64,000 nt of DNA from Candidatus Raymondbacteria bacterium RIFOXYA2_FULL_49_16. GTDB lineage: Bacteria > Fibrobacterota > OXYB2-FULL-49-7 > XYB2-FULL-49-35. The notes under the pieces were generated by a model that was not told the DNA's origin, ran no database searches, and saw only the letters and a program-made list of their open reading frames with translations. Shown piece after piece: positions 20,393 to 61,717 of the stretch; within the stretch, counting starts at the first letter, position 1, and each line of letters begins with the position of its first letter. The stretch spans positions 7,056 through 71,055 of the forward strand of contig MFYT01000012.1 of the NCBI GenBank assembly GCA_001789205.1, written 5' to 3'. Position numbers and translations under genes: made by a program.

Positions 20393-21631
20393 ATGGCGTT
20401 CGAATATTTCATCGCCCGCAGGTATCTCTGGGGAAAAAAGAAGCAGAGCTTCATTTCCACCATCCTGGCCATTTCAATTGTGGGCGTCTTTTTAGGCACC
20501 ACGGTGCTTATTGTCACGCTTTCCATTATGAATGGGTTTGAGCGTGAGGTAAAGGAACGCATCGTGGGGTCCTTTGCCCATATCAAGGTCATGATGTATC
20601 ACCACGACCCCATTCTCAACCCCGATTCACTCGCGGCTGCGGTACTGCTCGATAAGGAAGTTATTGCAGTTGCGCCGCTCATTGAGGACAAAATAGGCAT
20701 TTCGTCGAAGGAAGTGACCGATGGCATCATCCTGCACGGCATTGACCCGGTCCGCGAGGCAACGGTAACTGATTTCGAGAAAAACATCAAGTTTGGGAAC
20801 CTCGCATTTGATAGCGCCCAATCAATAAAGGGGCGGTCAAACCCGGGTATTGTGCTGGGATCGTATGTGGCCGACAAGCTGCGCGTGGGGCCCGGTGACG
20901 AAGTCATTGTCATGTCCCTGCGCGGCGAAGAGGATGCGCTGGCAGGCATTATGCCGAAAATGAAACGGCTCACGGTCTGCGCTATTTATGAATCGGGCAT
21001 GTATGAGTACGACGCCAATTTTTCCTTTGCGTCGCTTGCCGTTGCCCAGGACCTGTTCGGCGTACAGGGCGTCTCCTCGCTTCAGCTCAAAGTGGCTGAC
21101 GCGGGAACAGCGGACCGTATTGCCGCCCAGGTGCAGGACCGGCTGGGATATCCCTATTACTGCATCGACTGGATGAAACAGTACCGCACGCTCATCAAAT
21201 GGATGAACACGGAGAAATTCATCGCCTTCATTGTCATCAGCATGATCATCATGGTGGCCATTTTCAATATCATCAGCTCCCTGCTTATGGTCATTATGGA
21301 AAAGACCGGTGAAATAGGCATTCTGCTCTCCATGGGCGCAACACCCGGGAGTATTCGCCGTATCTTTCTTTTAAACGGCCTCTTTGTGGGCTTTGTAGGA
21401 ACCATTACAGGAACCGCCGCGGGCCTTTGCATCTGTTTTATCCAGATGAAATTCAATCTCATCAAACTTCCCGGCGATGTTTACTTCATCGATTCCCTGC
21501 CCATGATTGTCCAGTGGATCGACGCTGCCGCGGTCGTGATTGCGGCAAACCTTCTCTGCGTTGCCTTTTCCTTTTACCCGGCATACAAGGCGTCTCGTCT
21601 GCGGCCGGTTGACGCACTGATCTACAAATGA
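20393..21631 (+). CDS. LolC/LolE-type ABC transporter permease
   Basis: Inner-membrane subunit of the complex that extracts mature lipoproteins for delivery to the outer membrane. 412 residues: N-terminal 'FIARRYLWGKKKQSFISTILAISIVGVFLG' with the first membrane helix, a large periplasmic MacB-like domain (about 45-265), then three helices with the FtsX domain ('FNIISSLLMVIMEKTGEIGILLSMGA'). The C-terminus 'YPAYKASRLRPVDALIY' is typical. Only one permease is encoded here; E. coli uses a LolC-LolE heterodimer, so this may work as a homodimer or with a partner elsewhere. Its stop overlaps the lolD start (21628-21631). Confidence 0.93.
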   Translation: MAFEYFIARRYLWGKKKQSFISTILAISIVGVFLGTTVLIVTLSIMNGFEREVKERIVGSFAHIKVMMYHHDPILNPDSLAAAVLLDKEVIAVAPLIEDKIGISSKEVTDGIILHGIDPVREATVTDFEKNIKFGNLAFDSAQSIKGRSNPGIVLGSYVADKLRVGPGDEVIVMSLRGEEDALAGIMPKMKRLTVCAIYESGMYEYDANFSFASLAVAQDLFGVQGVSSLQLKVADAGTADRIAAQVQDRLGYPYYCIDWMKQYRTLIKWMNTEKFIAFIVISMIIMVAIFNIISSLLMVIMEKTGEIGILLSMGATPGSIRRIFLLNGLFVGFVGTITGTAAGLCICFIQMKFNLIKLPGDVYFIDSLPMIVQWIDAAAVVIAANLLCVAFSFYPAYKASRLRPVDALIYK

Positions 21632-22326
21632 GTACGCCCATGGAAAACGGCCCTGTTCTGCGCGCGGAAGAACTCCGCAAGTCGTACCGCGAAGGCGCCT
21701 CGCGTCTCGAGGTGCTCAAAGGAGCGTCGCTTTCCCTGCGGCAAGGCGAGATGGTGGCGCTGGTGGGAGAATCGGGATCGGGCAAGACGACCCTGCTCAA
21801 TCTGCTCGGATCGCTTGACAAACCAGATAGTGGATTGGTACATTTTATCAATACCGAGATCACCGGCCTTGCGGTGAACGAATTGGCGTCATTCCGGAGC
21901 AGGCACATCGGTTTTCTCTTCCAGTTCCACTACCTGCTGGCCGATTTCACCGCGCTTGAAAATGTGATTATTCCCGGCCTTATTGCCGGGAAGGACCGCG
22001 ACGGGCTCTTGCGGAAGGGCAGCGGCCTGCTCAAGCAGGTGGGGCTGGCCGACCGCCTGCACCACTGCCCGGCCGAACTCTCGGGCGGGGAACAGCAGCG
22101 CGTTGCCGCTGTGCGGGCCATTATCAACGACCCGCTGGCGGTGCTTGCCGACGAGCCCGCGGGCAATCTAGACGAAAGAAACAGCGCGCTGCTCATCGAC
22201 ATGCTCTTCGACCTGCGCAGCGAACGGGACCAGACTTTCCTCATTGCGACGCACAGCAGGTCGCTGGCCGAGCGGTGCGACCGGATACTATATCTGAAAA
22301 ACGGAACAATAGGAGACACGCCATGA
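21628..22326 (+). CDS. lolD: LolD-type ABC transporter ATP-binding protein
   Basis: ATPase that powers lipoprotein release with the preceding permease. 232 residues with all ABC motifs: Walker A G47-ESGSGKTT55, Q-loop 'GFLFQFHYLLADFTALENV' (the F-Q-F-H-x-L-L-x-D-F-T form typical of LolD), signature 'LSGGEQQR' at about 151-158 and Walker B 'AVLADEPAGNLDE'. It overlaps the permease gene by 4 bp upstream and mcsA by 4 bp downstream (ATGA at 22323), so the three are translationally coupled. Confidence 0.95.
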   Translation: MSTPMENGPVLRAEELRKSYREGASRLEVLKGASLSLRQGEMVALVGESGSGKTTLLNLLGSLDKPDSGLVHFINTEITGLAVNELASFRSRHIGFLFQFHYLLADFTALENVIIPGLIAGKDRDGLLRKGSGLLKQVGLADRLHHCPAELSGGEQQRVAAVRAIINDPLAVLADEPAGNLDERNSALLIDMLFDLRSERDQTFLIATHSRSLAERCDRILYLKNGTIGDTP

Positions 22327-25703: not shown

Positions 25704-26168
25704 ATGACCATGTTTCGCATATTCAAACAGCCCGCCCTTGCGGCGGGTTGTTTTTTTCTTTTTTGCGCGCTCTCCTGCTCACGTTCGGCCGATGTCGGCG
25801 CTCTCCTGCCTCCCGAATTCACCGTTGTCAGCACCTGCTGCTGCGTGCGGTTCCACGACCTCTTTGCCACCCAAGGCTGTATTGGCATGGTCTGCGGCAC
25901 TGCAAACGAAACGGCCGTTCAGGCAATCTGTTTTGCCTATGCGCGGGCCGAGGAGCCGCCAGTGCTGCTCAGGGCTTTTATCAACCTTTGCGAGGAAACG
26001 GGACTTGCTTATTCACTGCCAGGGGGAAATAAAAAACCGGTGGTCCTGACACAGGACAGCACCGGCTGTTTTTTTTGCGTGAGTTATGTCAAAAAACGCC
26101 TGTTTTTCGCCTCATCGTCCAGCGACTCAAAGGCAATTGCCGCCATGGGCCGCTGCCTTTCTCAGTAA
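25704..26168 (+). CDS. Cys-rich lipoprotein of unknown function
   Basis: 154 residues from ATG 25704 (ATG 25710 is equally possible). A lipoprotein signal peptide ends in a lipobox 'CALSC' at about residue 22. The mature part has many cysteines ('VSTCCCVRFHDL', 'GCIGMVC', 'TGCFFCVSYVK') and matches no family I know. The gene lies 19 bp after rpsU, and its 3' end overlaps the convergent GH106-like gene by 7 bp. Two intrinsic-terminator hairpins are inside the coding region, the first encoding most of the signal peptide, so expression from the rpsU promoter would need read-through. The frame stays open and protein-like, but I hold this gene with moderate confidence. Confidence 0.55.
   Translation: MTMFRIFKQPALAAGCFFLFCALSCSRSADVGALLPPEFTVVSTCCCVRFHDLFATQGCIGMVCGTANETAVQAICFAYARAEEPPVLLRAFINLCEETGLAYSLPGGNKKPVVLTQDSTGCFFCVSYVKKRLFFASSSSDSKAIAAMGRCLSQ
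25727..25757 (+). terminator. Intrinsic terminator of rpsU, inside the lipoprotein ORF
   Basis: ACAGCCCGCC (25727-25736) pairs with GGCGGGTTGT (25742-25751; one G:T pair) around a 5-base loop and is followed by a run of T (through 25757, then CTTTTTT). This is a textbook Rho-independent terminator 43 bp after the rpsU stop, and it lies within the signal-peptide codons of the next ORF. Confidence 0.8.
26037..26076 (+). terminator. Second intrinsic-terminator hairpin inside the lipoprotein ORF
   Basis: CCGGTG+GTCCTG (26037-26048) pairs with CAGGAC (26052-26057) and CACCGG (26060-26065) with a 2-base bulge and a 3-base loop, followed by CTG and T8 (26069-26076). A6 precedes the stem, so it could act in both directions, including for the minus-strand GH106-like gene whose stop is at 26162 (86 bp upstream of the hairpin in that direction). 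Confidence 0.75.
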
Positions 26169-29100
26169 ACATCGAGAAACACTTCACCTAACAGGCCCGC
26201 GGGCGTGTTCACCATCTTCAGCAGGTTGTTGTGAAGGTTGGTGATTTCGATCTCGAGCTTGTTTTTATCGTCGTTCATAAAGCTGGTGATGTCGGCCGTG
26301 GCAGGCTGCCACGAAAGTATGGGCGCTTCCTTGCCGTTTAATCGGACAACCACATGCGCGTCAAAGTTGCTGAGGCGCAGGATGGCCCGCTTGCACGTTC
26401 CCGGTTTCTCAAATACCTGGCGGTAGATCGCCCTGCCGCAATAGAAGGGATATCCCTGGCTTGTCCACGACCCGTACTTGAAGAGTTCGGCTTTTTTTGC
26501 CACAAACCAACCCTGGTTGCCGCGGTTGAGGGCAAAATTGCCCGCGAGGTAGACGGGATATTTGATGAGCAGCGGGTGATAGGTTGAACCGAATGTCTTT
26601 ACCGTGACACGGTTGATGCCGTGCTTGATGTGCTGGGACACGTCAGCCGCGAACAGGGATGCGCCACCCAGCGCCAGTTTCTTGACTATTTCCGTTTCCT
26701 GGAACTCGTTCTCGCCCCTGCCGAAGAATTGCATGGGCTTGAGCCGCACGCCGTTAAACGACACTTCAACTGGATAGACGCCCGAGTCGGGGCCGTTGGT
26801 GTACTGGTTGATGAGCCGGTGAAGCGCGATATAGCAGGTTGAGGGAACGTGTTCCACGGAGATGTAGCTTTCGTAGGCCATATTGAGGCCTGCGTTGATG
26901 TCGCGGTTGCTGTTGATTTTCATGGTCCAGCTGGACAGGGGAAGCGCATTGAGGTCAAGCGGCTCGAGCTCCCATTCGTCCTTGAAGATGATGCGATAGA
27001 CGCGGGAAGGATTGTCGAGAGCATACTCCAGCTTGAGCGGCGCCTTGATTTTTGCCCCGGTCCGTACGAACCAGGCCGCTTCGCCGGGTGAAAAGGTGTA
27101 GATGAACGACTGGACGGTCTGGTGCTGGTTTTCCGCTGACACGGGTGAGATAGCGCCCGAATTCATGTCGAGGTAATAGAGGAAGCCGTCGCGGTTCACC
27201 TTGATCTCGGCGCGGATGGATTCGGTGCGCGATTTGTTCAGCATAAAGACGTAGTCGAATGAGCCTTCGGAAAAGACGCGCGCGAGGATCCGTTTTTCCA
27301 CCAGGCCTTCGACAGCGACATCGACCACGCGCTTGAGCGCCGCGCCGCACACGGTACGGAGCGACTCGAGCTCGTCGGTTTTGTTTATTGTGGTGACTGG
27401 CGAGCCTGGAGCGGACTGGAGCGCTTCCATGCGGCGGGCAAGCAACGGGTCCTTGCCTTTTTCAAAGGTTTCGTGCGGCGTTATGCCAAAAAAGACGATT
27501 TTACCTCCGCGCTTGGCAAAGAGCTCAAAGAGCGCCGCCAGTCTCTTGGAGACAATGAGGGTCTCGGGAACAATGAGTATTTTAAAGATGCCCCTGTTTT
27601 TGCCATTGTGTTTGAAGATCGCTTCACCCTTGGGCGTGACCGTGAGGTTGGCGGCCATTGCCTCGGTCAGAAAATTAAAGGGGATGCTGTCGGCCACCAG
27701 CTGGTTGATGACAGCAGTGAAATTTTGGAGTCTGAGCTTGTATCCGGCAAGGTGCGAGGGGTTGTAGTAAGTATAGAAGGTTTGTCCGGGAAAGAGCACC
27801 GCCACAGACTCGGCATGGGGCGTTTTCTCGAGGCAGAACTGCTTGCGCATGAGGTAGGAGAGAAAGTTCTGGTACGATCCGTAGAAGCTTGAATGGACAA
27901 AGGTATTTGCCGGAGTGCGCATGCCGCTGTGGTAACCGAGCGTGGAGTACGATCCGTCGATGTGCGCAGAGTGGATACCGTGTATCGAAAGCTCATCAGA
28001 TTCGAACTTGATGTCCTTGGGTGAAAGGCCCACGCCGATCCGGTTGCGGCCCAGCACGACCGTGCCGCGCGATTGGCGCGCATTGAGCGATTTCAGGTCG
28101 GCAAAGAGACGCGCGGAAATGCAATTGTCGCCCGAGAAGGGCGCTGCCGCGGTAATGCCTTCGACCGCGGGTAGCGCGGCGCATGAGGACCAGTCGAACT
28201 GGAGCATGTGCTCGGTTGAATAGTGATCGCCGCCGTTGAGATAGATGTGCATGCCGCAGCGGCTTTTTTTTCCGAACTCGGCCAGAGGTTTAATGAAATT
28301 AGCATTGAGAAGGTCGAGCAATGACGAATAGAAAGTGCGCCGGATAAGACCGTTTTTCGCAGAGTAGCCGTCGACAAAAAGACTGAGGACCGAGGTCATG
28401 GTGTCGGCCCCGCACGCGGCATTGAGCTTTTTCTGTATCTCAAGTGTCCAAGGGATGCCGCGGATTGAAGTGTCGGGCGCGACAGAGGGCAACTCGACCA
28501 CAAAACCGGCAAGCGCGGGCGCCGCGTCCTTAGGCATTGTTTTCTTGAAATTATCAAAGGCGGCGTTGATGTAGGCGCGCGCGGCGTTTTTGTCGAGCAC
28601 ATTGAGCGCATAGCCGCCGACGGGTTTAATGTTGGCGCATTCGCGGAAAATGAAGAGGCGCCAGTCGCCTGTGGGAAGCTCGCATTTCAACTGGTTATTC
28701 TTGAGCATAGGGGTCAGGTTTTTTGCCGAGGAGAATTCGAGTACGCGGTCTTTGGATTTCAGGGCAAAGACATATTGGATCCCGCTTTCCTCAAAGTCGT
28801 GAGAAAACTTATGGGGTCCCTTGACCTTCAATACCCTGGCAAGGGAGAGATATTTCATCCTGAGGGCGGGTGATGCGAGCGTAAGGGCGGCGGAGGCGCC
28901 CGGGTCTGCGTTGATGAGGTCGTCGGAAAAGAAGATCTGCATGGAAAGTTTGCGCGCTTCACGGAAGACCTGCCACAAGCAGGCGAAAAAGTCGGCTGAA
29001 GGATAGGTGGGAACAGCGCTATTGTCGATTTTCAAGATTATTTTTTGGATGCCCTGTTGTTGCATGGCGAGGAGTTGGGATGCAATGGCAGCTTTTTCCA

Positions 29101-29191
29101 GTTTTCCGGAAAGGATATAGACCGGCATCGGGGTGTTGAATTTGGTGGATTTCGATGTCAATGATTTTAACAAACTTGATAAATTTGACAT
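26162..29191 (-). CDS. GH106-like glycoside hydrolase-family protein without signal peptide
   Basis: 1009 residues. Features recalling GH106 (alpha-L-rhamnosidase-type) proteins: an N-terminal barrel-like region ('ILSGKLEKAAIASQLLAMQQ', 'FACLWQVFREARKLSMQIFF'), a middle glutamine-amidotransferase-like region ('FKILIVPETLIVSKRLAALFELFAKRGGKIVFFG', about residues 540-590) and a C-terminal galactose-binding jelly-roll ('RAILRLSNFDAHVVVRLNGKEAP', 'NKLEIEITNLHNNLLKM'). No signal peptide is seen, so it would act in the cytoplasm or leave by another route. Catalytic residues cannot be assigned by eye. Start ATG 29191 has AGAGGA upstream. It is the last gene of the minus-strand envelope block; substrate unknown. 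Confidence 0.6.
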   Translation of the reverse strand: MSNLSSLLKSLTSKSTKFNTPMPVYILSGKLEKAAIASQLLAMQQQGIQKIILKIDNSAVPTYPSADFFACLWQVFREARKLSMQIFFSDDLINADPGASAALTLASPALRMKYLSLARVLKVKGPHKFSHDFEESGIQYVFALKSKDRVLEFSSAKNLTPMLKNNQLKCELPTGDWRLFIFRECANIKPVGGYALNVLDKNAARAYINAAFDNFKKTMPKDAAPALAGFVVELPSVAPDTSIRGIPWTLEIQKKLNAACGADTMTSVLSLFVDGYSAKNGLIRRTFYSSLLDLLNANFIKPLAEFGKKSRCGMHIYLNGGDHYSTEHMLQFDWSSCAALPAVEGITAAAPFSGDNCISARLFADLKSLNARQSRGTVVLGRNRIGVGLSPKDIKFESDELSIHGIHSAHIDGSYSTLGYHSGMRTPANTFVHSSFYGSYQNFLSYLMRKQFCLEKTPHAESVAVLFPGQTFYTYYNPSHLAGYKLRLQNFTAVINQLVADSIPFNFLTEAMAANLTVTPKGEAIFKHNGKNRGIFKILIVPETLIVSKRLAALFELFAKRGGKIVFFGITPHETFEKGKDPLLARRMEALQSAPGSPVTTINKTDELESLRTVCGAALKRVVDVAVEGLVEKRILARVFSEGSFDYVFMLNKSRTESIRAEIKVNRDGFLYYLDMNSGAISPVSAENQHQTVQSFIYTFSPGEAAWFVRTGAKIKAPLKLEYALDNPSRVYRIIFKDEWELEPLDLNALPLSSWTMKINSNRDINAGLNMAYESYISVEHVPSTCYIALHRLINQYTNGPDSGVYPVEVSFNGVRLKPMQFFGRGENEFQETEIVKKLALGGASLFAADVSQHIKHGINRVTVKTFGSTYHPLLIKYPVYLAGNFALNRGNQGWFVAKKAELFKYGSWTSQGYPFYCGRAIYRQVFEKPGTCKRAILRLSNFDAHVVVRLNGKEAPILSWQPATADITSFMNDDKNKLEIEITNLHNNLLKMVNTPAGLLGEVFLDVY

Positions 29192-29390: not shown

Positions 29391-31799
29391 CTATTTTAGA
29401 AACAGCGCTTTTCTACTCTTTTCCCACGTTCCTGCCTGAAGCGTGTACACATACAAACCATTCGGGCATTGCGCGCCAGTCTCGTCCAGGCCATCCCACA
29501 ATATGATGTAATACCCAGGTGCAAGATTGTTCCTCACAAAACTCCTGACCTTTCTGCCTCTAATGTCCCTGATAACAAGCTGTGCATTGCATTTTTTTGG
29601 CATAGCAATCCTGATGGATGTGGTTGGATTAAAAGGATTGGGTGAATTCTGGTATAACTCAAAAACCTTGGGCAGCAATGTTACGTTCTTCTCAACAGCA
29701 ATGTCGTCCAGCGCAATAAAGAAGAACCTGTTTAACCCAACGCTGAAGCCGGTCGTATATCCTGTGGTATCATACGCGGAAACACGCCAATAAATGTATG
29801 TGCTCTCAGGATAGTCCCAGATATCCAGCAGATCACGAAGTATTACAACTGAATCAGGAAGAGAATCAACAGCCTTTACCATTTCCTGAAACACACTGTC
29901 ACGATAGAGCTCTATGGTGTATTTTGCCCCGGTTTTGATAATGTCCGGATCTCCCATGGTCCAAGCAAGTGTTGAATCCCCAAACAAAGAATCAGTCTCA
30001 ACTGGCCGCACAATGGCAGGAGGCATGCCGCGGTTTTTTATCTGAACATGCCAGATTTGTTCTATGGTAAATTCTCCGTCTGTGACTGCCACTGAAACAG
30101 TACACCTGCCAACAGAGGTATAGGTCGTAAACAGGGTGCAATAGAAGGTCGTGCATACCGGAACCCCGTTCATGGACCATGCATAGGAAAAGACTGCCTC
30201 TGAATGGTGGAAGCTGCGCGGTAATGCCCAGAATACGGCAGTATCAGTCTCATAAATCGATGTATCGTCAAAGGGGCGCCAGGTCTGGAATTCAATGGAA
30301 TCAGATGAGGCAATGACATGCAGGCTGAATGACTGGGTGTCTGCAAGGCCCCGGTCGTCAGAAACAATGATGCTGATGGGGTTGTCGCTCTCTTCCCTGC
30401 TGTTCTGTGTCCATCTGAGTGTGTCTTTGGACAGGGTCATGCCAGCAGGAGAGATCGCCAGAGAACAGGTAATGGGGTCGCTGTCCGAGTCTGTTGCGCG
30501 GACAATGTAGTTCCATGGATAGTAGGCAAGAACATTGGTTGTTGGCAGGGAATTTATTGTTGGCGCATTGTTGGATCGCAGAACGTGCAGGGTAAACGAG
30601 AGGGTATCAAAACGGTTTTTTCGGTCAGACGCCTGGATCGAGACTTCGTTGTCGCTGGTGTCTCCGGCAGTCCACTGGATCACGCCAGTAACAGAATCAA
30701 TGGTCATGGAATCTGGTGCAATGAGCAGGGCGTATCTGACTGTGTCTGCATCAGGGTCTATGGCTAAGACGGGGATAGAAAAGGATGTGCCTGATGCGAT
30801 TATTGTGTCTGCGCTGGCTGTTGTAGAAAACACAGGGGTCTGGTTGGTTGGTGTGCCAGTAACGATAATGTTGAAACAGAGGGTATCGTATCCGCCGTTG
30901 TTGTCAGAAGCCTGGATGCAGACTGGGAATGTGCCGGTGTCATAGGGGACACCGCGAATACTAAAGTGATTAAAAAGACTGTAATAACCACTAACAGCAA
31001 CGAAAGAAGGACTATGGATAGGGGTGCAGTAAATTGTATCTCCGTCAATGTCTTGTACTCTAAAATAAATCTCGTCATAAAAGTCCATTCTTTCATCAAC
31101 GAATCGCTCGTAGTTGGGTAACGTATCAACAAAGAAAGGAATGTGATTAGTAAGAACATATCTTGCCGTATCAGATATTCTGATTTCATCAATGAAGACA
31201 TTAGAGAGCGTTGGCCCTCCAATAAATAGGCTGTCACTGTGGGTGTCTGTTTGGCCAGAATAGCCCACCCCGACCAATGAGTCATTAAAAAAGAGTGTTA
31301 CAATGTTTCTGAGGGAATTGCGCTGTGCTCCTAGAACAAACCAGGTGTTTGTATCGAGATCTAATTGATTTGATTCGGCATTTCCAGAATTAAAGCTGGA
31401 AGAAAAGCTACTTTCGTTTAAAAATAATACATAATCTGGTGAATAATTGATGAGTTTATAACTAAATCCTGACTGTTTATTGTTAATTTTAAATCGTACT
31501 TCTAGTGTAACCCATTCGTCAAATAAATTTAAAATGGAAGAGTTTTCCACAGCCGCAGTATTTGAAGTGTCTGAGAAGACCAAACCATTAACGCCAAGAT
31601 CTGAACCCCAAGAAACCGGTTGGCCAATTTTTAAATGATTTCCATAGAAGGAAGAATCGAAGGCAGTATCGCCTTGTCCTTCGTTAAATCGCCATAAAGC
31701 CCTGGTATGCGCATCAGACTGAAAGAAGGATTCTTGAGAAAATAGGACAGATGAAAAAACGAGAACCCATGCAACTATTATATGAGGCTTAATAAACAT
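29391..31799 (-). CDS. Secreted multi-domain protein: LamG, cadherin-like repeats, type-A C-terminal sorting tail
   Basis: About 802 residues. The signal peptide starts 'MFIKPHIIVAWVLVF' and is probably cleaved after 'SVLFSQ'. Next comes a LamG/concanavalin-like domain ('TRALWRFNEGQGDTAFDSSF', 'WVTLEVRFKINN', 'SLVGVGYSGQTDTHSDSLFI'; about 25-210), then tandem Ig/cadherin-like repeats (about 270-510: 'PVFSTTASADTIIASGTSF', 'APTINSLPTTNVLAYYPW'), and a last domain ending in the sorting tail 'ELYQNSPNPFNPTTSIRI' ... 'GLYVYTLQAGTWEKSRKALF'. The tail is the FlgD-Ig-like type-A signal used by the type IX system. Start ATG 31799 has AAGGAG upstream. Probably a cell-surface adhesion or carbohydrate-binding protein (inference). 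Confidence 0.8.
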   Translation of the reverse strand: MFIKPHIIVAWVLVFSSVLFSQESFFQSDAHTRALWRFNEGQGDTAFDSSFYGNHLKIGQPVSWGSDLGVNGLVFSDTSNTAAVENSSILNLFDEWVTLEVRFKINNKQSGFSYKLINYSPDYVLFLNESSFSSSFNSGNAESNQLDLDTNTWFVLGAQRNSLRNIVTLFFNDSLVGVGYSGQTDTHSDSLFIGGPTLSNVFIDEIRISDTARYVLTNHIPFFVDTLPNYERFVDERMDFYDEIYFRVQDIDGDTIYCTPIHSPSFVAVSGYYSLFNHFSIRGVPYDTGTFPVCIQASDNNGGYDTLCFNIIVTGTPTNQTPVFSTTASADTIIASGTSFSIPVLAIDPDADTVRYALLIAPDSMTIDSVTGVIQWTAGDTSDNEVSIQASDRKNRFDTLSFTLHVLRSNNAPTINSLPTTNVLAYYPWNYIVRATDSDSDPITCSLAISPAGMTLSKDTLRWTQNSREESDNPISIIVSDDRGLADTQSFSLHVIASSDSIEFQTWRPFDDTSIYETDTAVFWALPRSFHHSEAVFSYAWSMNGVPVCTTFYCTLFTTYTSVGRCTVSVAVTDGEFTIEQIWHVQIKNRGMPPAIVRPVETDSLFGDSTLAWTMGDPDIIKTGAKYTIELYRDSVFQEMVKAVDSLPDSVVILRDLLDIWDYPESTYIYWRVSAYDTTGYTTGFSVGLNRFFFIALDDIAVEKNVTLLPKVFELYQNSPNPFNPTTSIRIAMPKKCNAQLVIRDIRGRKVRSFVRNNLAPGYYIILWDGLDETGAQCPNGLYVYTLQAGTWEKSRKALFLK

Positions 31800-31970
31800 A
31801 AACAAGGTCTCCTTTACAAACAAGACCGGTTAAAATAATTATATACAGGGTGCGAGCAAAATATTTGTTTTTACTGCTGTTGTCACGGTCAAGAAACGTA
31901 GGGTATGACGGAGATCTTTTGTCAAGAACCCTCATACGGGCTTGGCTCGAAATGACAGGCGTCAGACTCG

Positions 31971-32007
31971 AAAAGAAAAACTCCCCCACCCAAGTGGGCG
32001 AGGGAGT
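31971..32007 (-). terminator. Intrinsic terminator of the transglutaminase-like gene
   Basis: On the minus strand GACTCC - (CTCG bulge) - CCCAC - TTGG loop - GTGGG - GGAGT is followed by TTTTTCTTTT. The hairpin starts 37 bp after the stop codon of the minus-strand gene at 32044. The rest of the gap (to 31800) shows no gene. Confidence 0.75.
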
Positions 32008-32043
32008 CAAGAATTGTCCAGTCTTGCAGATCTGAGAGGATTT

Positions 32044-34362
32044 TTACCTGGTCAGAATCATCTTTCTGCTCAGGATTTCTTTCCCTGTCGAAAGCGTGTA
32101 CACATAGATGCCGCTTGCTACCTGGGCACCATTGCTGTTTGTGCCATCCCAGGTAACGCTATAGCTTCCGCCCACCAGAGCACCATACTGCAGGGTTTTA
32201 ACCAGCTCGCCCTTTATTGTCCGCACATCAATCTGTACGTGTCTCTTTTCAGCACCTTTCAAGGCAAAAGAAATCGTTGTTGTGGGGTTGAAAGGATTGG
32301 GATTGTTCTGTTCAAGCATCAAGTCAGCCGATGCCACAGATGCGGCCTTATCGATGCCTACAGTAGGGTTTTGCTGGAGATCCGTAAGTAACACGCCACC
32401 GGGAACTTCTATAGTTACAGAATGGTTTGGATCTCTTGGGACAACACTAGAAGGATTGATGTTATACGACAGTGTCCCATTTGAAGCTGCAAGTTGTTCT
32501 GCTGAGAAGGAGAAGTTAAATGTGTCTTGGGCCACATAGGTCCTGTTTGTTATGTGTTGAATTATAATATCATTGAAATAATCAGCAGGAAAATGGTTAA
32601 CATAATAGTGCATGTAGAGTTCATTTTCACGGATACTGGCATTTTGACCGCGATTATAACACTGAATATATGCCAAGCGCCCGGGATTAGTGATTGAATC
32701 ACGTTCAAAATTTAAAGCATGACCCCAATGGCCAAATCCATATTCTCCATTTGCAACACATGCGTTCATGGTAGCAACCGTTGTGTTAATATGGGCTGGA
32801 ATGGTCGTGGTTGTCACTAGCGCCCCTTGGCTGTTTCCAACCTTAATATCAAACGTATTGGATGCAACCGCGCTAAACGAAGTGCTGTTGGTCCGTTGAG
32901 CCAGGAAGTTGCCGCTTATTGATCGTATTTGACCTGTGGTTGGGCCGGTCAACTCCAAAGTCATGTAGGCCCCGATTCCGCCACCATTAGTTTTGCCTCC
33001 ATTACGCCAAGTGTCTGTTCCCTGATATGTGAATCCATTAGCGTCAATAACAAATCGATTAAAACCTGTCGAATTACGCCAATCAGGCAGTAATGTCAAA
33101 GTTTCATCATTGTCGTATAGTTTCAGTCTGACAGTATTAGAACCAGCGTGGATTTTGGGAAGAGCGCCTGGGCTCAACGAACTGATTGTGACGATATTGA
33201 AACCAGTTATTTTTCCTGTTCCTGAAATTTTGACCAAATAATCATACCGCTGCTGGGCCTGGGTTGCTCCAGAATAAATTGTCCACGTCTTCCCCAAGTC
33301 GAAAGAGAGCTGCGTGGTCAAGCCGCCGTTTTGAGTTACAGTGATTATTGAATTATAGATGGGATATGGGATACGAACCGCCCATGTTACAGAACCATTT
33401 GCCAGGTCAACGCCGTCTGCCACAAGCGTTGCATTGGACTGTTCATAGATGCCGTCAAGATAATCAGCATATCCTGCCTGAAGTGTGGGGTGGTAGGTCA
33501 TGCGCGCATTACCCCATATTTGCATGTTCTGATATGTTGCAGGATTTGCATTAGGATGAATATATGTATTGTTTATTGGCTGAAAGAAACGTTCGATTTT
33601 TTCCCCAATACGCAGCGAAAAGCTCATATCGGCACCGCCCCCGTGGTCTGCTCCAAGAAATAGGTATGAAGGGTGCGCAAGATAATTTTTAATGTTTGAC
33701 ATGTTGGCAAGAGTCCAGAAATAATAAGAATGAACAGGGACTTGGTCCCATGTTGAGGCGTGTGTAGTAGCCCAATCCAAACCATATGTGACACCGTTTG
33801 TATTTGCCCCCCAACCGCCTTCATTCCAATCGAAATAATGCCAACCACCGTTATAATACACATCACTTACTCGGTGTGCTCCATTGGATAGGCTCCATTG
33901 CCGGGCCTCAAGCCCAAGCATTTGGTAGAGATTGCATGATGATGTTCCATAATACATGCAATATCCATAATTGAAGACGTTAAAATACTTTATTGGGTCA
34001 TAGACTTGTGTCCAGTTTAGACCAATATTGAGGGGATCTTCTTTGTAATTTTGACCATCGTGGCTATGGTATTCATTTTTCCGAGCATACTGATCACTTA
34101 GACCCCATTCTCCAAACATCGCAGCATCACGCATCTCCCCCACACACACAGTATCGTGCAGCGCTTTAAAGAAGGGGTCGAGATCCGCCGGATTGTAGGC
34201 GGGAAATTCCGCGCAATTTTCGTTTGTTGTGGTAAGCTTTGAGCAGCTCCACAAGTTTAGATCCCGATCACCCAAAATCCATGGGTTGCGCAAACGTGCG
34301 TACGCACCAATGGCAACAAGGATAATGACCGCGCAGGTCAATATGGCGTTACATCGTTTCAT
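32044..34362 (-). CDS. Secreted transglutaminase-like protein with type-A C-terminal sorting tail
   Basis: 772 residues: signal peptide (1-22), then a region with the transglutaminase-like triad C135 ('YGYCMYYGTSSCNLYQMLGL'), H163 ('NGAHRVSDVYYNGGW') and D178 ('HYFDWNEGGW'). The order, spacing and surrounding glycines and aromatics match bacterial transglutaminase-like cysteine peptidases. A long beta-rich middle follows, and the C-terminus is a sorting tail 'LEQNNPNPFNPTTTISFAL' ... 'GIYVYTLSTGKEILSRKMI'. It should be exported and attached or released by a type IX-like system; its activity (protein cross-linking or amide hydrolysis) is inferred only from the triad. AAGGAG precedes ATG 34362, and an intrinsic terminator follows the gene. 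Confidence 0.75.
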   Translation of the reverse strand: MKRCNAILTCAVIILVAIGAYARLRNPWILGDRDLNLWSCSKLTTTNENCAEFPAYNPADLDPFFKALHDTVCVGEMRDAAMFGEWGLSDQYARKNEYHSHDGQNYKEDPLNIGLNWTQVYDPIKYFNVFNYGYCMYYGTSSCNLYQMLGLEARQWSLSNGAHRVSDVYYNGGWHYFDWNEGGWGANTNGVTYGLDWATTHASTWDQVPVHSYYFWTLANMSNIKNYLAHPSYLFLGADHGGGADMSFSLRIGEKIERFFQPINNTYIHPNANPATYQNMQIWGNARMTYHPTLQAGYADYLDGIYEQSNATLVADGVDLANGSVTWAVRIPYPIYNSIITVTQNGGLTTQLSFDLGKTWTIYSGATQAQQRYDYLVKISGTGKITGFNIVTISSLSPGALPKIHAGSNTVRLKLYDNDETLTLLPDWRNSTGFNRFVIDANGFTYQGTDTWRNGGKTNGGGIGAYMTLELTGPTTGQIRSISGNFLAQRTNSTSFSAVASNTFDIKVGNSQGALVTTTTIPAHINTTVATMNACVANGEYGFGHWGHALNFERDSITNPGRLAYIQCYNRGQNASIRENELYMHYYVNHFPADYFNDIIIQHITNRTYVAQDTFNFSFSAEQLAASNGTLSYNINPSSVVPRDPNHSVTIEVPGGVLLTDLQQNPTVGIDKAASVASADLMLEQNNPNPFNPTTTISFALKGAEKRHVQIDVRTIKGELVKTLQYGALVGGSYSVTWDGTNSNGAQVASGIYVYTLSTGKEILSRKMILTR

Positions 34363-34536: not shown

Positions 34537-35097
34537 CTATGAAATAGTATGTTCAAACAATATTTTCAGGCCAATGGCAATAAGCACAAGGCCCCCGGCC
34601 CTCTCGACCCAGTGTCCAAAAAGCGTACCGACCCTTTTGCCAATGGAGAGGCCTATGATTGAAAAGAACGCGCATACAATACCGATTATGATACTTGGGG
34701 TCACAATAGGGACCCGCATCATGCCGAAGCTGAGGCCCACAGCCATTGCATCGATGCTGGTTGCCACGGAAAGGAAGATGAGGGTAAGACCGCGCGAGGG
34801 GTCCTGGGAAAAGCCCGCTTCTTTTTTCTCAAACGATTCTTTGATCATTTTTATGCCAACAAACGCAAGCAGCACAAGCGCCAGCCAGTGGTCATAGGCC
34901 TTGATATACTGTTCAACAAAAACACCGCCGAAATAGCCCAGAATGGGCATGAAAAATTGGAAAAGCCCGAAATGAAAGGCCAGCCTGAAGTAGTGGCGGG
35001 GCGTGGGGTTTCCCAGGGAAATGCCCGCGGCAATGGACACGGAAAAGGCGTCCATGGCAAGACTTACGGCAATGCCGGTAATTGTGAGCAAATCCAT
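34537..35097 (-). CDS. mntP: Manganese efflux pump MntP
   Basis: 186 residues with six hydrophobic segments in two repeats. Each repeat carries the family's acidic pocket: 'AVSLAMDAFSVSIAAG' near the N-terminus and 'VATSIDAMAVGLSFG' near residue 115. It exports Mn2+ across the inner membrane. No yybP-ykoY-type riboswitch can fit in the 52-bp upstream gap, so regulation is not obvious. It sits between the two secreted-protein genes on the same strand. A palindrome CATAGT-N6-ACTATG (34524-34541) covers its stop codon; the rest of the 174-bp gap to the next gene shows nothing else. Confidence 0.93.
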   Translation of the reverse strand: MDLLTITGIAVSLAMDAFSVSIAAGISLGNPTPRHYFRLAFHFGLFQFFMPILGYFGGVFVEQYIKAYDHWLALVLLAFVGIKMIKESFEKKEAGFSQDPSRGLTLIFLSVATSIDAMAVGLSFGMMRVPIVTPSIIIGIVCAFFSIIGLSIGKRVGTLFGHWVERAGGLVLIAIGLKILFEHTIS

Positions 35098-35149: not shown

Positions 35150-37780
35150 TTACCTCATCACGATCACCCGGCCAGCGGCAACCTGGCTTCCCGCAGTCGC
35201 TTTTATTACATATACACCGCTTCTTATTTCTCCAGGCCTCCAGATAACGGTTGTCCGCCCCATGCCGGGTTGCAAGGTCTGTACCAGTCTGCCATTGATG
35301 TCATATACTTGGACAAACGGTGGTTCTGTTTCCCGAATATGTTTATTAAACGCGAACGAAATGGCGACTGTCCGGGTAAAAGGATTCGGCGAAACAGAGA
35401 CAAAGGCCCGGGCTGCCGTACGGCCGCTGTTTTTTTCGATCTGGTCCGGCGGGAAGCTTTGTGCCAGGTAATCCGGATATTGGGTCAGATAATCAGGGTT
35501 TATCAGCAAATATTTCAGGTAATCGGGCGCTTCACGGAACCGCTCCACGTGCTCCTTTGCGCGCGCGGACGGGGACAGGTTTGCGCTCACGAAAAAAGCC
35601 TCCCAACAGCGCTGCGCGCCATGGGCGATGAGCGTGTCTTCAGGCGCAAGTTCAAGGGCCTTGGAAAGCCCCCCAAGGAACCACTGCGGAAAAGCGTCCG
35701 CCACCGTTTGATTGTCCGCGGCCACGTTCCGCGCCCAGGTGAGCAGCATGGTTTGCGCATGCGCATCGCCCGAATCGGCAAAGACGTGGTCCGCAATGCC
35801 CGCGCCTACAATGGCGTTCTGGAAATAATTGGAGGTGAGTACTGTGGCGCAATGGTCGCCGGTGTTTGGTCCGTTCGTATAGTAAAGATGCGCGCGGTCG
35901 CGGTATTGCGCGTCGCCCGTGGCCTCGTAAGCGGAGGCAAGACCCATGAGCACATGGCCGAGTGAACGGTATTCGCCGTTGTTGGCGAAACGGTTCATGG
36001 GAAAGCGCACGATACGCAGGGCAAGTTCCTTGAGCATGGGTTCGTTGTACACGGCCCACCAGTCAAGGAGACCGGTGATTTTCCAATGGTTGGCGTTGCC
36101 GTCATTTCCCGCAATGCAATCCTGGTATCCGAAAAACTGCTCCACACCCGGGCAAATTTTGCAATCGCCGTTTACATTGTCGTGGTCGAGGTCCGCTGTT
36201 TGCAGGGCGCGGCCCATGCCCCAGAGCGCCGTGGTCTGGTCAGCGTGCATGGCATATGCGAGCGCGCCCAGGTATGCCATGTCGTAATAATTGTTTGCCG
36301 TGTGCTGGCGGTTGGCGCAGCAGCAGTTGACCGGATCAACATTATCTCCGTACCAGAGAAAGTTGTACCCATTGTTCCACGTCATTGCGCCTGTTGCATA
36401 GGGATACTGTAATGCGGCGGCATACCCTGCATGGCCAAAGACCAGGCAGGTGTTTTTGTACACATTGAAGAAGCGGACCCACGAGGTCCGTTCCGTGCTG
36501 TTGTGCGCGAACAGGTCCGGGTCAGCGTGCACCAGCGTGTTGCCAAAGACCTGTGTTTTGCCGCAGAGCCACACTGCCGGCGGAATGGCGTAGAGGGGTT
36601 GGGCGATTGCATAATAGGCCTCCTCGGTTAGGCCAATGCTGTCGCTGAAATTGACAAAAGCAATGTGCGTGCGGCCAAACCCGCCATACCAGTCGGTGGC
36701 GGGGCCCAGGCTGCTGTACAACCCAAGGGAAAGGGCGCCTGTGCTGTTTGCCAGAAGGTGTTTGGGCGCCATTTCCCAGAAATAGCGCATACCGCATCCC
36801 AGGCCTTTTGTTCCGTCAGACACATGGAGCCAGCCCATCTTTTTTGTGCCGCCGGTCACTTCGTTCTGGCCTTTTCCCGAGGCAAGGAGAGTTGCGTTCT
36901 TTTTGATCTCATAGACATCGGACGAACTGTAGTGTTCTGTCAGTTGCTCGCCTGTGGAGAGAGCGGTTTCAAAACGGCCGTCCGCATCAAGGTGGCTCAC
37001 GGTCGCGGTAAGCGCTCCCGCAAGCCTGGTCTTGAAATTCATGGACAGGGCCGAAAGAACCATGGATGAAGACGCGAAGTCGTTCATGTACCAGTTGTGT
37101 ATTATCCGGACATAGGGTTTATTGCGATATGCGGTTACATAGAGCACCATAGGATACTGTGCGCCCGCGGAAACAGCGGCGCGTATGCATACCTGCCCTG
37201 GTGTATGCCACACTACCGAAAGCTGGGCTGTTGCGCCCGTGGTGACGTTTGTCCCAACTGTCAGGGCGCTGGCATTGCCCGATTCAATGATCTTGTGCGC
37301 ACTATCATAATTTCCGCTGCCGCTCAGGTCCGCCCAGGCCTCATCAAAGATATTGAAACCTGTTGAGTGCATGGTAAAGCGGGCGACACCCGTGGTCACG
37401 GTCACAACACCGGCTGTTTCGGAGACCGTGAGCGTCCCTGAAGCGGGGTTCGATCCCTTGTCGCTCAGGATATAGGTTGTTGCGCCCGAGGCGGCGACCG
37501 TGGCGTCAAACGCCACGCCAAGCCAGCGGATGGAGCCGTCCTCCCAGGTTTCAACAACCGTGAAACCCGCGGGCACAGACTTATTGGTCGCCGAATCCTG
37601 TATGGCGAAAAGCACGGTGTCAGCAGGCTGATATGCTCCCTTGGGCATGGGCACGCTGTTCGACACAGGTGCGCTGGTTCGCGCGACGCCCGCGTGTTCA
37701 GTGACGCGCAGGGGCAATGCAAGACCGCAGACGCTTATACATGCGCCAGAGACGCAGAGGAACATGAGGGAGAGGTTCAT
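35150..37780 (-). CDS. Secreted RIFT-barrel (PcRGLX/YetA-like) polysaccharide-lyase-family protein with sorting tail
   Basis: 876 residues. Signal peptide 1-21 ('MNLSLMFLCVSGACISVCGLA'). The N-terminal domain 'LPLRVTEHAGVARTSAPVSN', 'SVPMPKGAYQPADTVLFAI' and 'WEDGSIRWLGVAFDA' is the RIFT-barrel start of the exo-rhamnogalacturonan-lyase (PcRGLX)/YetA group. The middle (about 400-760) is helical and likely an alpha/alpha barrel. The end 'VSVSPNPFTRTVAISFAF' ... 'GVYVIKATAGSQVAAGRVIV' is a type-A sorting tail. By family it may cleave acidic polysaccharide; the real substrate is unknown. ATG 37780 overlaps the NHL gene stop (ATGA), and that gene overlaps the lytic transglycosylase gene, so the three are coupled. 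Confidence 0.7.
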   Translation of the reverse strand: MNLSLMFLCVSGACISVCGLALPLRVTEHAGVARTSAPVSNSVPMPKGAYQPADTVLFAIQDSATNKSVPAGFTVVETWEDGSIRWLGVAFDATVAASGATTYILSDKGSNPASGTLTVSETAGVVTVTTGVARFTMHSTGFNIFDEAWADLSGSGNYDSAHKIIESGNASALTVGTNVTTGATAQLSVVWHTPGQVCIRAAVSAGAQYPMVLYVTAYRNKPYVRIIHNWYMNDFASSSMVLSALSMNFKTRLAGALTATVSHLDADGRFETALSTGEQLTEHYSSSDVYEIKKNATLLASGKGQNEVTGGTKKMGWLHVSDGTKGLGCGMRYFWEMAPKHLLANSTGALSLGLYSSLGPATDWYGGFGRTHIAFVNFSDSIGLTEEAYYAIAQPLYAIPPAVWLCGKTQVFGNTLVHADPDLFAHNSTERTSWVRFFNVYKNTCLVFGHAGYAAALQYPYATGAMTWNNGYNFLWYGDNVDPVNCCCANRQHTANNYYDMAYLGALAYAMHADQTTALWGMGRALQTADLDHDNVNGDCKICPGVEQFFGYQDCIAGNDGNANHWKITGLLDWWAVYNEPMLKELALRIVRFPMNRFANNGEYRSLGHVLMGLASAYEATGDAQYRDRAHLYYTNGPNTGDHCATVLTSNYFQNAIVGAGIADHVFADSGDAHAQTMLLTWARNVAADNQTVADAFPQWFLGGLSKALELAPEDTLIAHGAQRCWEAFFVSANLSPSARAKEHVERFREAPDYLKYLLINPDYLTQYPDYLAQSFPPDQIEKNSGRTAARAFVSVSPNPFTRTVAISFAFNKHIRETEPPFVQVYDINGRLVQTLQPGMGRTTVIWRPGEIRSGVYVIKATAGSQVAAGRVIVMR

Positions 37781-39108
37781 TTTTGGCTCCAGGTATTCTG
37801 TTTTCCGTAGGGCAGGGTTACTGGTTTTTGAAAATAGGTGTATGACGAATACGTTGGTTCAAAAATAGCCAGCCAGCGGTCTGCGCCAACAACGGGCTTG
37901 TTGCAAGCAAAGACCCGGGTGAATGTTTTGGGAAAGCTTCTTCTTTTTGAAAAGAGCGTTTCCAGTGTGTCGCCTTGTGCGCCAAGCAGGTATAGCGAGA
38001 CATAACTTGGCTCAGTCAGGTCTCCAGCCAGTACCCAGGACATACGATTACCCCTGGTTTTTTCCGGTGCAAGCGAAACAGCGCGGACATCCGTGCCCAC
38101 CCAGTAGTATTGCGCGCCCGCGCGTTCGGCCATAAAGGTCTGGCCATATCGTTTCCATATGCAGATGCCGCGCGGTTCATCAAACTCGCGGTCACCGGTA
38201 CCGCTCTTGCCAAACGAAGTAAGATAGACCAGATTCATGGTGAATTTATCGACGCATCCCCGTTTTTTATCCGTCAGATAGATATTGCCATAGTAATCGG
38301 CTGCCATATATTCGTGCGTTGTTTTTTTACCAATAAGGGCATCGGGCGAGACCTGGAGCGCCTCGTTGTTTTCGAGATCCACGCGTACCAGCGTTTTACC
38401 GCTGTCGTTCAGAAAAAAAAGAAAGTCGTGACGGTAATAGACCCACCGTTCACTTCTGGTGTTTACGGCAATGCCCAGAGGCTGCCGGACCACGCAGCCG
38501 GGCAGGGAATGGAACTCGCGGAGCACCACCCCCGAGTATGTCATAATGAGTATGCGATCATTTCCCGTGTCGGCGATATAGAGGTTGCCATTGCCGTCAA
38601 GTGCAATATGCGTGGGCTTCTTTAAAAGGCCAATCCCCAGGTGGCTTTTAAAAAGAACCTCGCGCTTGGGATTGAACAGCCACACCACTCGGTTGTTTCC
38701 CGTATCGCAGATATAGACATTGCCTTTTTCATCGCAGGCCACGCCTGTCGGGTCCCTCATCTCGTCCGCGCCACTACCCCGGGCGCCCCAGAGCCCCAGC
38801 GTGTACATGGAATGGTTGTAGATAATCTGGTTTTTGCCGCTGTTTACCCCGTACACAGTCACCTCGTCATCATCATCCTCGGTCGTGGTATCGTCGCGCG
38901 TGATCATTTTTGTCACCGCAATGCCGCGCGGATCGTGGAACCGGGTCTTGAAGGGCAGAAGCAGAGCGAGTTTCGTCTGGGTGGCGCGCTGGATGCCGTA
39001 GGAATGAAAATAGGGAGGAAAGACCAAGGTGGTGGGCACGTCCTTCGCGTGCGCCCGCAGGAGCGCGCAGAGGGAAAACAGGAACAGGAGTTGCGCGCGG
39101 TTAATCAT
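37777..39108 (-). CDS. Exported NHL-repeat (beta-propeller) protein
   Basis: 443 residues. A short signal peptide ends '...LLRAHA'. Several NHL repeats follow: 'MRDPTGVACDEKGNVYICDT', 'LKKPTHIALDGNGNLYIADT', 'EYMAADYYGNIYLTDKKRG' and 'FDEPRGICIWKRYGQTFMAE'. These form a beta-propeller used for binding proteins or sugars. An acidic linker 'TTTEDDDDEVT' sits near residue 75. There are no catalytic motifs. The start overlaps the lytic transglycosylase gene by 8 bp and the stop overlaps the RIFT-barrel gene by 4 bp. Probably a periplasmic or surface scaffold working with these two (inference). Confidence 0.8.
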   Translation of the reverse strand: MINRAQLLFLFSLCALLRAHAKDVPTTLVFPPYFHSYGIQRATQTKLALLLPFKTRFHDPRGIAVTKMITRDDTTTEDDDDEVTVYGVNSGKNQIIYNHSMYTLGLWGARGSGADEMRDPTGVACDEKGNVYICDTGNNRVVWLFNPKREVLFKSHLGIGLLKKPTHIALDGNGNLYIADTGNDRILIMTYSGVVLREFHSLPGCVVRQPLGIAVNTRSERWVYYRHDFLFFLNDSGKTLVRVDLENNEALQVSPDALIGKKTTHEYMAADYYGNIYLTDKKRGCVDKFTMNLVYLTSFGKSGTGDREFDEPRGICIWKRYGQTFMAERAGAQYYWVGTDVRAVSLAPEKTRGNRMSWVLAGDLTEPSYVSLYLLGAQGDTLETLFSKRRSFPKTFTRVFACNKPVVGADRWLAIFEPTYSSYTYFQKPVTLPYGKQNTWSQK

Positions 39109-41284
39109 TCCAGATATCCCGGTATACCCAATAGTTTTTCATGCATTTTTTCGCGTAATAACGTGTTTCGGTATAGCCGATCTCCTCGACAAAAGCGTCG
39201 AACGGCCGGTTTTTGTTCACAGTGCGCCACCGTTCAGCCGCCTGCGGGCCCGCATTGTAGGCGCAAAAGGCAAGGACCGGATCGTTACCGAACCGGTTCA
39301 GCATGGCGTTGAAGTACCACGCGCCAAAGGCGATATTGCATGCGGGATTGAACAGGGAGTCGGGCGTAAAAGGGGTATTCAGTTTGGCCGCGATTTCGGT
39401 CCCCGTATAGGGCATTATCTGCATGAGTCCTAGTGCGCCCGCCGGAGAGACGACGCGGTATTGATACATGGATTCCTGAAGAATGAGCGAATGCACAAGC
39501 AGCGGATCGAGCCCGTATTTTTTACATTCGGCAGTGATGAATTCGCCATAGTAGCGCGGAAAAAAACAGCGGGCGATTTCCAACGGCATGACACCGTAGA
39601 GACCTTCAGGGATTTTCCAGAGCAGGGGCCGCAGTGTCCGGTAGGCCTCGCTGACAAATCCGTTCGCCTCGTAGAGGCGAACCAGATGATAGTGCAGGAA
39701 AGGGTTTTTCCGCGACTCCTTTTCAAAAGGACGCAGCGCCTCAAAAGCAAGGTTATAACAGCCGGCCTGCAGCAGTACCGTGCCGGCCCGGTAAGCCTTT
39801 TCGGTCTCCGGGCCAAGGAGCGCGGTCTGGGACTGCGGAACAATCGCGCTTCCCGGGGACAGGAAACGCTCCACGGTCACGGCTGCGCGTGAGCTGTCGT
39901 TAGCGCGCAGGAGTGCGGCGAGCGAGTCGGGGCTGAGAGAATCGAGCCGTTCCCGTGCCCGGTAAGCGTAGTATGAAAAAAAATTATACCTGATTGCGCT
40001 GAGATACCATTGTACCGCCTCGTTTGTTTTTTTTTGTTCTTCGCATACCTTCCCGGTCCAATAGCAGCAGTCCTCTGTCTCAAAGCCCAGGGGATACCGT
40101 TTCGCGTGGCCTTTCCAGACAGTGGTTGCGGCAGCGCGATCGCCCTTTTTGTAGTGGCAATATCCCATGCGCCATCGGGCCTTTTCCCCGTACGAACCGT
40201 TCTTGTATCTTGCATCGATCAAGCCGAAATAGTGGATTGCGCGGTCGAGATTTTTGTCGTCTTCATAGGTACGCGCGATTTCCCACAGCACATTGTCGCA
40301 GTGCGCGTGCTGGGGAAAGCGGCGGACATAATCCAAATAGTATTTGTTCGCGGTCTGGTTCATCTTAAGTTTTTTGCAGCAGCGACCCATGTAATAGGCG
40401 AAGAGGGGTTCACTCGGATAATTTTTTCGCGCCGTTATGGCCATATCGAGCGCTTTCTTGAATTTTCCCTGGCCAAAGGCCGCCTGCAGGGCGAGAATGA
40501 AAGACTCCCTGGCAAGCCTGCTTTTCTTGCGCGAGAGCGGATAGGCAATATCCCACACCTTGTCCCACGCGAAGCGCAAAGCGAGGTATTTTGCAGTCTG
40601 ATATTCCTGATCCGCTGAAACAGACGTGCCGGTCTTGCGGATTTGGGCGTAGCGCTGGTAGACACTGTCGGCAAAGGGTGAATTCGCACTGTTTTGTATT
40701 ACGGACATGTATTCGGCAAGGGCCTTGTCAAATTGTTCTGCGTCAAAATACTCGTTGCCCAGCAGATAGCGGAGCTCCTCGGCGTTGGCCGGGGCGCGGC
40801 CGGCAATGCGCGCGCAAAAGGCCGTTGCCTGGCCCCCCTTTTTCAACAGGCCGCTTTTAAGCAGCGCAACAGCGGCATTGACCTGGACCTGCGCGGGCGA
40901 CTCTTTCGACTCAAGGGCCGTGAGCAGCGCGGCCGCCTCTTCCGGGGTGTTGTCTCCCAGGCAGGCGATGAATTCATTGCATTGGGCATAGGGCGCCAAC
41001 AGGGGGCTTTTTTCTCCCGCCTCCTGGAATTCCTTTTTTGCCTTGCTGAAATGGCGTTTCGCAAGGGCGGTCATGCCCTTTTTAAACGCGTCCGCCCCGG
41101 CGTCATCAACGGGAAAAAGCGGTGTGAATGTGTGTTTTGTATAGGGAGCGGTCAGCGCAATGGGATAGAGGTCGGAGAGAGGGAATTCCTGCGTGTCGGC
41201 TGCGGGCGCGTTTTGATCAGGGGCTTCGTCGGCGGGGCACGGAACCGTTGCCGCAGCGCAGAGAAACAGGGCAGCCAGTTTCAT
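39101..41284 (-). CDS. Soluble lytic murein transglycosylase (Slt-like) with TPR repeats
   Basis: 727 residues from ATG 41284, which begins a clear signal peptide (MKLAALFLCAAATVPCPADE); an upstream start at 41326 would put 14 residues in front of it. A long helical repeat region (about 60-560; e.g. 'DRAIHYFGLIDARYKNGSYG', 'NEAVQWYLSAIRYNFFSYYA') precedes an SLT catalytic domain (about 590-727) with the catalytic glutamate near 603 in 'LILQESMYQYRVVSPAGALGLMQIMP' and 'LAFCAYNAGPQAAERW'. It cleaves peptidoglycan glycan strands to 1,6-anhydro ends in the periplasm. First gene of a coupled trio with the NHL and RIFT-barrel genes. Confidence 0.92.
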   Translation of the reverse strand: MKLAALFLCAAATVPCPADEAPDQNAPAADTQEFPLSDLYPIALTAPYTKHTFTPLFPVDDAGADAFKKGMTALAKRHFSKAKKEFQEAGEKSPLLAPYAQCNEFIACLGDNTPEEAAALLTALESKESPAQVQVNAAVALLKSGLLKKGGQATAFCARIAGRAPANAEELRYLLGNEYFDAEQFDKALAEYMSVIQNSANSPFADSVYQRYAQIRKTGTSVSADQEYQTAKYLALRFAWDKVWDIAYPLSRKKSRLARESFILALQAAFGQGKFKKALDMAITARKNYPSEPLFAYYMGRCCKKLKMNQTANKYYLDYVRRFPQHAHCDNVLWEIARTYEDDKNLDRAIHYFGLIDARYKNGSYGEKARWRMGYCHYKKGDRAAATTVWKGHAKRYPLGFETEDCCYWTGKVCEEQKKTNEAVQWYLSAIRYNFFSYYAYRARERLDSLSPDSLAALLRANDSSRAAVTVERFLSPGSAIVPQSQTALLGPETEKAYRAGTVLLQAGCYNLAFEALRPFEKESRKNPFLHYHLVRLYEANGFVSEAYRTLRPLLWKIPEGLYGVMPLEIARCFFPRYYGEFITAECKKYGLDPLLVHSLILQESMYQYRVVSPAGALGLMQIMPYTGTEIAAKLNTPFTPDSLFNPACNIAFGAWYFNAMLNRFGNDPVLAFCAYNAGPQAAERWRTVNKNRPFDAFVEEIGYTETRYYAKKCMKNYWVYRDIWND

Positions 41285-41382
41285 ATATTCAAAAATATAC
41301 TCTGCACCCGGCCAGTACAACAGCAATGTGGCATATGTGTATTTAGTATATTATTTTTCAAAGAATACCAAAGGCGGTGATC

Positions 41383-61405: not shown

Positions 61406-61717
61406 ATGGATACCAGCTTCGCAATTTCCACAGGCGCCATGCGGGTCACCCAGATCCGCCACGATGTTACGGGAAACAATGTCGCCAATATCAACACCGA
61501 CGGTTTTCAGCAAAGCGATGTCATCCAGAAAGAGACCAACCCCGGAGTAGATATTGCCGATATCCGGAAAACCCCCAACAATGGCCCCTATTCAAACACA
61601 GACTTTGCCAAAGAAGCCAAAGAGATGATTGTGAACAAGGACGCGTACGGCGCAAACGGCAAAGTGATTAAAGTGCAGGACCAAATGCTGGGCGAAGCAA
61701 TCAATCTGATCGGCTAA
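61406..61717 (+). CDS. Short flagellar basal-body rod-like protein (FlgB/FlgC-type)
   Basis: 103 residues. The N-terminus 'MDTSFAISTGAMRVTQIRHDVTGNNVANINTDGF' is the flagellar rod/hook N-terminal helix with the conserved 'NNVANINTxGF' motif. The C-terminus 'AKEAKEMIVNKDAYGANGKV' is the matching rod-protein C-terminal helix. The central domain of FlgC (about 134 residues) or FlgB is almost absent, so this is a minimal rod-type protein. GGAG precedes the ATG and a sigma-28-like promoter is upstream. It may be an export or rod accessory component; exact role unknown. Confidence 0.75.
   Translation: MDTSFAISTGAMRVTQIRHDVTGNNVANINTDGFQQSDVIQKETNPGVDIADIRKTPNNGPYSNTDFAKEAKEMIVNKDAYGANGKVIKVQDQMLGEAINLIG

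Follow-up and report, generated by a model that had tools for sequence, protein, structure and literature searches.

Do three overlapping genes for a wall-cutting enzyme, a β-propeller and a polysaccharide-lyase-like protein encode one envelope module, or does the gene order bring together proteins that act apart? The locus lies in a window of 64,000 nucleotides, by which we mean the whole stretch analysed, from Candidatus Raymondbacteria bacterium RIFOXYA2_FULL_49_16 (Fibrobacterota; contig MFYT01000012.1), whose genome measures 5.4 Mb. The three minus-strand open reading frames and their two overlaps, of 8 and 4 bp, are present as the initial annotation described them (Table 1); we refer to the products as LT (lytic transglycosylase), NHL (NHL propeller) and RIFT (RIFT-barrel lyase-like protein). 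By eye, each has a hydrophobic N-terminal stretch resembling a signal sequence, and an alternative in-frame TTG start of the LT is possible at 41326. The three genes probably share a single transcript; scans of the locus for promoters and terminators gave nothing above shuffled sequences. Overlapping starts are frequent in the window, as with the 4 bp shared by 20393–21631 and 21628–22326, so the overlap by itself is little evidence and a test of conservation was needed.

Table 1. Features of the LT–NHL–RIFT locus (positions within the window)
Feature	Position	Strand	Description
LT	39101–41284	−	727 aa; predicted secreted TPR and SLT-domain lytic transglycosylase; ATG start
SLT catalytic domain of LT	39197–39538	−	residues 583–696
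Catalytic Glu604 of LT	39473–39475	−	
LT/NHL stop-start overlap	39101–39108	−	8 bp, ATGATTAA
NHL	37777–39108	−	443 aa; six-bladed propeller and C-terminal β-sandwich; predicted signal peptide
NHL/RIFT overlap	37777–37780	−	4 bp, ATGA
RIFT	35150–37780	−	876 aa; predicted PcRGLX/PL26-like secreted protein
Por secretion (type IX) C-terminal sorting domain of RIFT	35159–35392	−	PF18962 and TIGR04183 above cut-off

On the same strand, a gene for MntP, a putative manganese efflux pump (34537–35097), starts 52 bp past RIFT and may share its transcript. Two more large secreted proteins of 810 and 772 aa, with FlgD-like or T9SS tails, are encoded within 29391–34362 (−), and a 1009-aa protein at 26162–29191 has no Pfam match.

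Pfam upheld the family identity assigned to each of the three proteins, as did the fold for the propeller and the lyase-like protein. The LT combines TPR repeats with an SLT domain (PF01464, E 7.8e-27, 93.6 bits against a cut-off of 21.3; Pfam profile search), and its catalytic motifs are intact (E604, GLMQIMP and AYNAGP), which by sequence makes it a member of the SLT family. All 42 LTs compared retain the catalytic Glu, the Gln of GLMQ and the Tyr-Asn of AYNAG without exception, and activity is therefore expected of the window LT. BB0259, a flagellar LT of Borrelia that makes room in the wall for the rod or hook, has this motif set too, and its matching Glu is required (PMC8517470). Slt70-type LTs (PDB 1qsa, 5ohu and 6fbt) are likewise secreted and place a helical repeat region before a C-terminal SLT domain with ES/GLMQ/AYNAG motifs. 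However, the sequence match of our LT to these enzymes is confined to its last 190 residues, its N-terminal half is TPR-like, and it is genetically coupled to a propeller.

NHL contains the repeats of its family (PF01436, 57.7 bits, E 8e-16; Pfam), and its AF2 model (pLDDT 93.1) consists of a helix at residues 4–19, a propeller at residues ~24–339 and a β-sandwich at residues ~340–433. The model matches known NHL propellers with Z-scores up to 33 (Foldseek, VIA-align), and the repeats and the predicted six-bladed fold identify the protein as an NHL propeller. The fold is shared with the PknD sensor domain (1rwi), TRIM71 and Pizza (Z 29–33 over ~250–270 residues), whereas the additional C-terminal β-sandwich and the family motifs DDDE and GAQYYW-GT, which are not tied to a known function, set NHL apart from them. 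In a Zixibacteria relative, the C-terminal sandwich matches FlgD_ig. Because DDDE and GAQYYW-GT are conserved and no catalytic signature is recognised, binding is the most plausible role for the propeller.

An NHL alignment scan of 84,980 species genomes, in which two short motifs were used, provided the best 80 loci, drawn from many phyla. In 21 of these 80 the gene immediately upstream, in the same orientation, encodes a homolog of the SLT-type LT (20 of the 73 with more than 1.2 kb of upstream sequence). Given a choice of the best 80 and two short motifs, this proportion should not be taken as the rate across the NHL family at large. The pair recurs in at least eight other phylum-level groups: Krumholzibacteriota (four loci), Zixibacteria, Eisenbacteria, Latescibacterota and UBP1 (two each), and Gemmatimonadota, Edwardsbacteria and TA06 (one each); five other bacteria and one labelled Chitinivibrionia also carry it. 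In the last of these (locus L158), LT and NHL group with those of Krumholzibacteriota and Latescibacterota, and the bin is probably mislabelled. The NHL start overlaps the LT stop as ATGA in 9 of the 21 pair loci, and at least six others could have spacings of about −14 to +16 bp; it is this reappearance in other phyla that makes the LT–NHL overlap noteworthy. Each of the 21 pair-bearing genomes has essentially one copy of this LT type, with a second weak match in one and a match split in two in another. No fused LT–NHL protein was found among 75 NHL ORFs. In the openly accessible literature searched, we found no description of a link between NHL and LT; the one paper in which both terms appear deals with another topic, and no paper combines the propeller with an LT.

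The pairing is not obligatory. Among 21 NHL-bearing genomes without the linkage, 11 have the LT elsewhere and 10 have none at E 1e-15. Other neighbours of NHL are seen at loci L110, L112, L113, L130, L144, L147, L151, L157, L164 and others: uvrC takes the place of the LT upstream of NHL in KSB1 and Calditrichota, and in Eisenbacteria secA often comes after the NHL gene. Such separate occurrence, together with the position of the pair among conserved housekeeping genes in several phyla, would suit LT and NHL merely sitting side by side in a long-standing arrangement of genes, each with an independent role in the envelope. Several groups keep purine genes and secA around the pair, so some of the linkage may simply have been inherited passively along with the surrounding genes. 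However, coupling at the level of overlap recurs in distant phyla despite differing flanks; the flanks vary among Zixibacteria, TA06, Edwardsbacteria and Fibrobacterota while LT and NHL stay together. We therefore consider mere neighbourhood rather unlikely as an account of the pair.

Within Fibrobacterota the two genes have a different distribution. The LT type is present in 118 of 120 relatives, about 100 of which lack NHL; NHL is found in 19 genomes if this one is counted, a number that stays the same when all 167 phylum members analysed are considered. In the 18 other NHL-bearing genomes NHL lies apart from the LT, on different contigs where both positions are known, with a gene for an uncharacterised protein of ~220 aa after it in 15 of the 18 loci and often a divergent DUF6941 gene upstream. 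At the Fibrobacterota LT loci (L084–L101), a gene for a secreted Reg_prop propeller (PF07494) comes after the LT in 18 of 20; an inositol-1-phosphate synthase gene often follows, and RlpA is close by in several. The propeller gene next to the LT is thus of two unrelated kinds, NHL in the pair and Reg_prop in other Fibrobacterota.

The LT tree places the window LT as sister to a group of 20 further LTs from Fibrobacterota (support 97/86 for those 20 and 95/67 for the joining branch), and the NHL tree does likewise for the window NHL and 12 other NHL proteins of the phylum (95). Both placements fit retention of an old linkage. The simplest history that the trees suggest, and the most likely, is that an old LT–NHL linkage survived in this lineage and in other phyla but was broken in the remaining Fibrobacterota. 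Repeated formation of the pair is possible at the cost of more events, whereas its horizontal arrival is not favoured, because both trees put the window copy beside Fibrobacterota.

The ~220-aa protein downstream of NHL, here called A4, is highly conserved and has several hydrophobic stretches. Its gene directly follows NHL in most Fibrobacterota (L064–L080) and at five other loci (L119, L146, L153, L158 and L176), two of which (L158 and L176) have LT, NHL and A4 in a row. By eye A4 resembles SEC59/DGK1-type kinases, which act on polyprenol or diacylglycerol, but Pfam, NCBIfam and PDB profiles were all without a match, and for that reason we claim no name for it. A broader proposal is that LT and NHL, at times with the membrane-type A4, form an unrecognised peptidoglycan-cleavage complex across the phyla related to Fibrobacterota, with the propeller as a dedicated regulator or docking part. 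We put this forward tentatively, as a possibility about which we are somewhat doubtful.

A more specific function is suggested by the closest NCBIfam model to the LT, that of BB0259 (NF047373, BB0259_flg_lyt), which aligns over the C-terminal 300 residues. Together with the FlgD_ig domain of the Zixibacteria relative and the rod genes of this genome, it brings to mind a flagellar assembly module, in which the LT, like BB0259, would clear a way through the wall for the rod or hook, with NHL as a helper. Yet the LT scores 160.2 bits, below the curated cut-off of 234, and the pair does not track flagella. Flg_bb_rod genes are found in just 5 of the 21 pair-bearing genomes of other phyla, and in Fibrobacterota rod genes occur in 52 genomes, as against the 118 of 120 with the LT, while about 35 flagellated genomes are without NHL. 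Given both distributions, the function shared across genomes cannot be a flagellar one. Some of these genomes are incomplete, which makes single absences weak evidence, but the overall pattern holds and largely refutes flagellar assembly as the general function; a flagellar module of this kind is highly improbable. A match to the flagellar rod domain PF00460 lies near the end of the window (61427–61510, plus strand; contig 68482–68565).

The third protein has a different background. RIFT matches PcRGLX_1st and PcRGLX_2nd (PF19501, 27.6 bits, and PF21345, 36.4 bits), both above their cut-offs. The Pfam search did not match PF21346, the C-terminal α/α toroid, in RIFT; its low-confidence model does have a helical region and matches the PL26 fold. 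Predicted from eight sequences, the model has a pLDDT of 55, too low to read the active site, and over its full length it is nearest to PL26 lyases (5xqg, E 1.4e-18). By Pfam, RIFT shares the RIFT barrel and the central sandwich domains with the PL26 exo-rhamnogalacturonan lyase PcRGLX (5xq3, 5xqg), and its model matches that fold over the whole length, but the identity is 14%, there is no sequence match to the PDB entry, the model is of low confidence, and RIFT has a T9SS tail. The earlier description of RIFT as polysaccharide-lyase-like agrees with both the Pfam domains and the fold, its activity being putative.

The T9SS tail scores above the cut-off for its sorting domain (TIGR04183, 33.7 bits against 23), and the genome contains the T9SS component SprA (588.6 bits) and more than 100 T9SS tails; by these sequence features RIFT is a type A T9SS cargo. 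The genome has about five PcRGLX-like paralogs including RIFT, most of them with T9SS tails; they sit in unrelated loci, and at least two adjoin other secreted T9SS-tailed proteins. RIFT is part of this lineage-specific set of T9SS-exported paralogs. RIFT-like proteins were found in 4 of 120 Fibrobacterota genomes; three of the four are remote matches from a genus that has no NHL, and no RIFT ortholog lies beside LT or NHL in the Fibrobacterota members searched or in the best 80 NHL loci.

These results bear on whether LT, NHL and RIFT make up a true surface-polymer module, with the LT providing an exit route, NHL a scaffold and RIFT the exported lyase. The overlapping genes, probably on one transcript, and a RIFT that has both a T9SS tail and a PL26-like fold would be in keeping with such a module. 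However, RIFT has no conserved linkage, its paralogs occupy unrelated loci and, to our knowledge, T9SS cargo normally needs no gene-specific LT, all of which makes the three-protein module very unlikely. Among the 167 Fibrobacterota genomes and the best 80 NHL loci the trio is found in this genome alone, and we reject it as a conserved unit. The envelope module proposed in the initial annotation accordingly gains support for LT and NHL, from synteny and close coupling across phyla, and loses it for the trio with RIFT. RIFT is probably a co-transcribed neighbour outside the conserved pair; it most likely acts extracellularly on polysaccharide and shares just the transcript with LT and NHL.

We lean towards LT and NHL being a two-protein peptidoglycan-cleaving unit, presumably secreted, in which the propeller would serve as scaffold or adaptor and from which RIFT is separate. 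This reading is based on the gene order, the overlap, the recurrence across phyla, a descent compatible with vertical inheritance, the intact motifs and the propeller fold. LT and NHL would form an old, vertically inherited two-gene unit whose predicted signal sequences should direct both proteins to the periplasm or outer envelope, where the SLT domain would cut the glycan strands of peptidoglycan. Contact is most likely made between the TPR region and the propeller, or by both with a common envelope partner. The propeller could then place or restrain the LT where the wall must open or couple to an outer-envelope structure, and translational coupling would hold the two proteins in proportion. 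RIFT, as a T9SS-exported PL26-like protein acting on polysaccharide, would have joined the transcription unit in this lineage.

Periplasmic partnerships of a propeller with a TPR protein cooperate at the outer envelope in BamB/BamD and TolB/CpoB. They offer an analogy for how LT–NHL may work, with no claim of membership, and they differ from it in that the TPR protein of LT–NHL is itself the wall-cutting enzyme.

The locus is best restated as a conserved LT–NHL pair, a wall-cutting enzyme and what is likely its dedicated partner, to which RIFT is an accidental third gene. LTs are numerous and redundant, and little is understood of how a cell sets the place and time of cutting for each. As a gene translationally coupled to a single LT type in many uncultured phyla, the propeller is a direct and testable candidate for a dedicated partner of this sort, and the bacteria that carry the pair belong to a part of the tree with almost no envelope biology.
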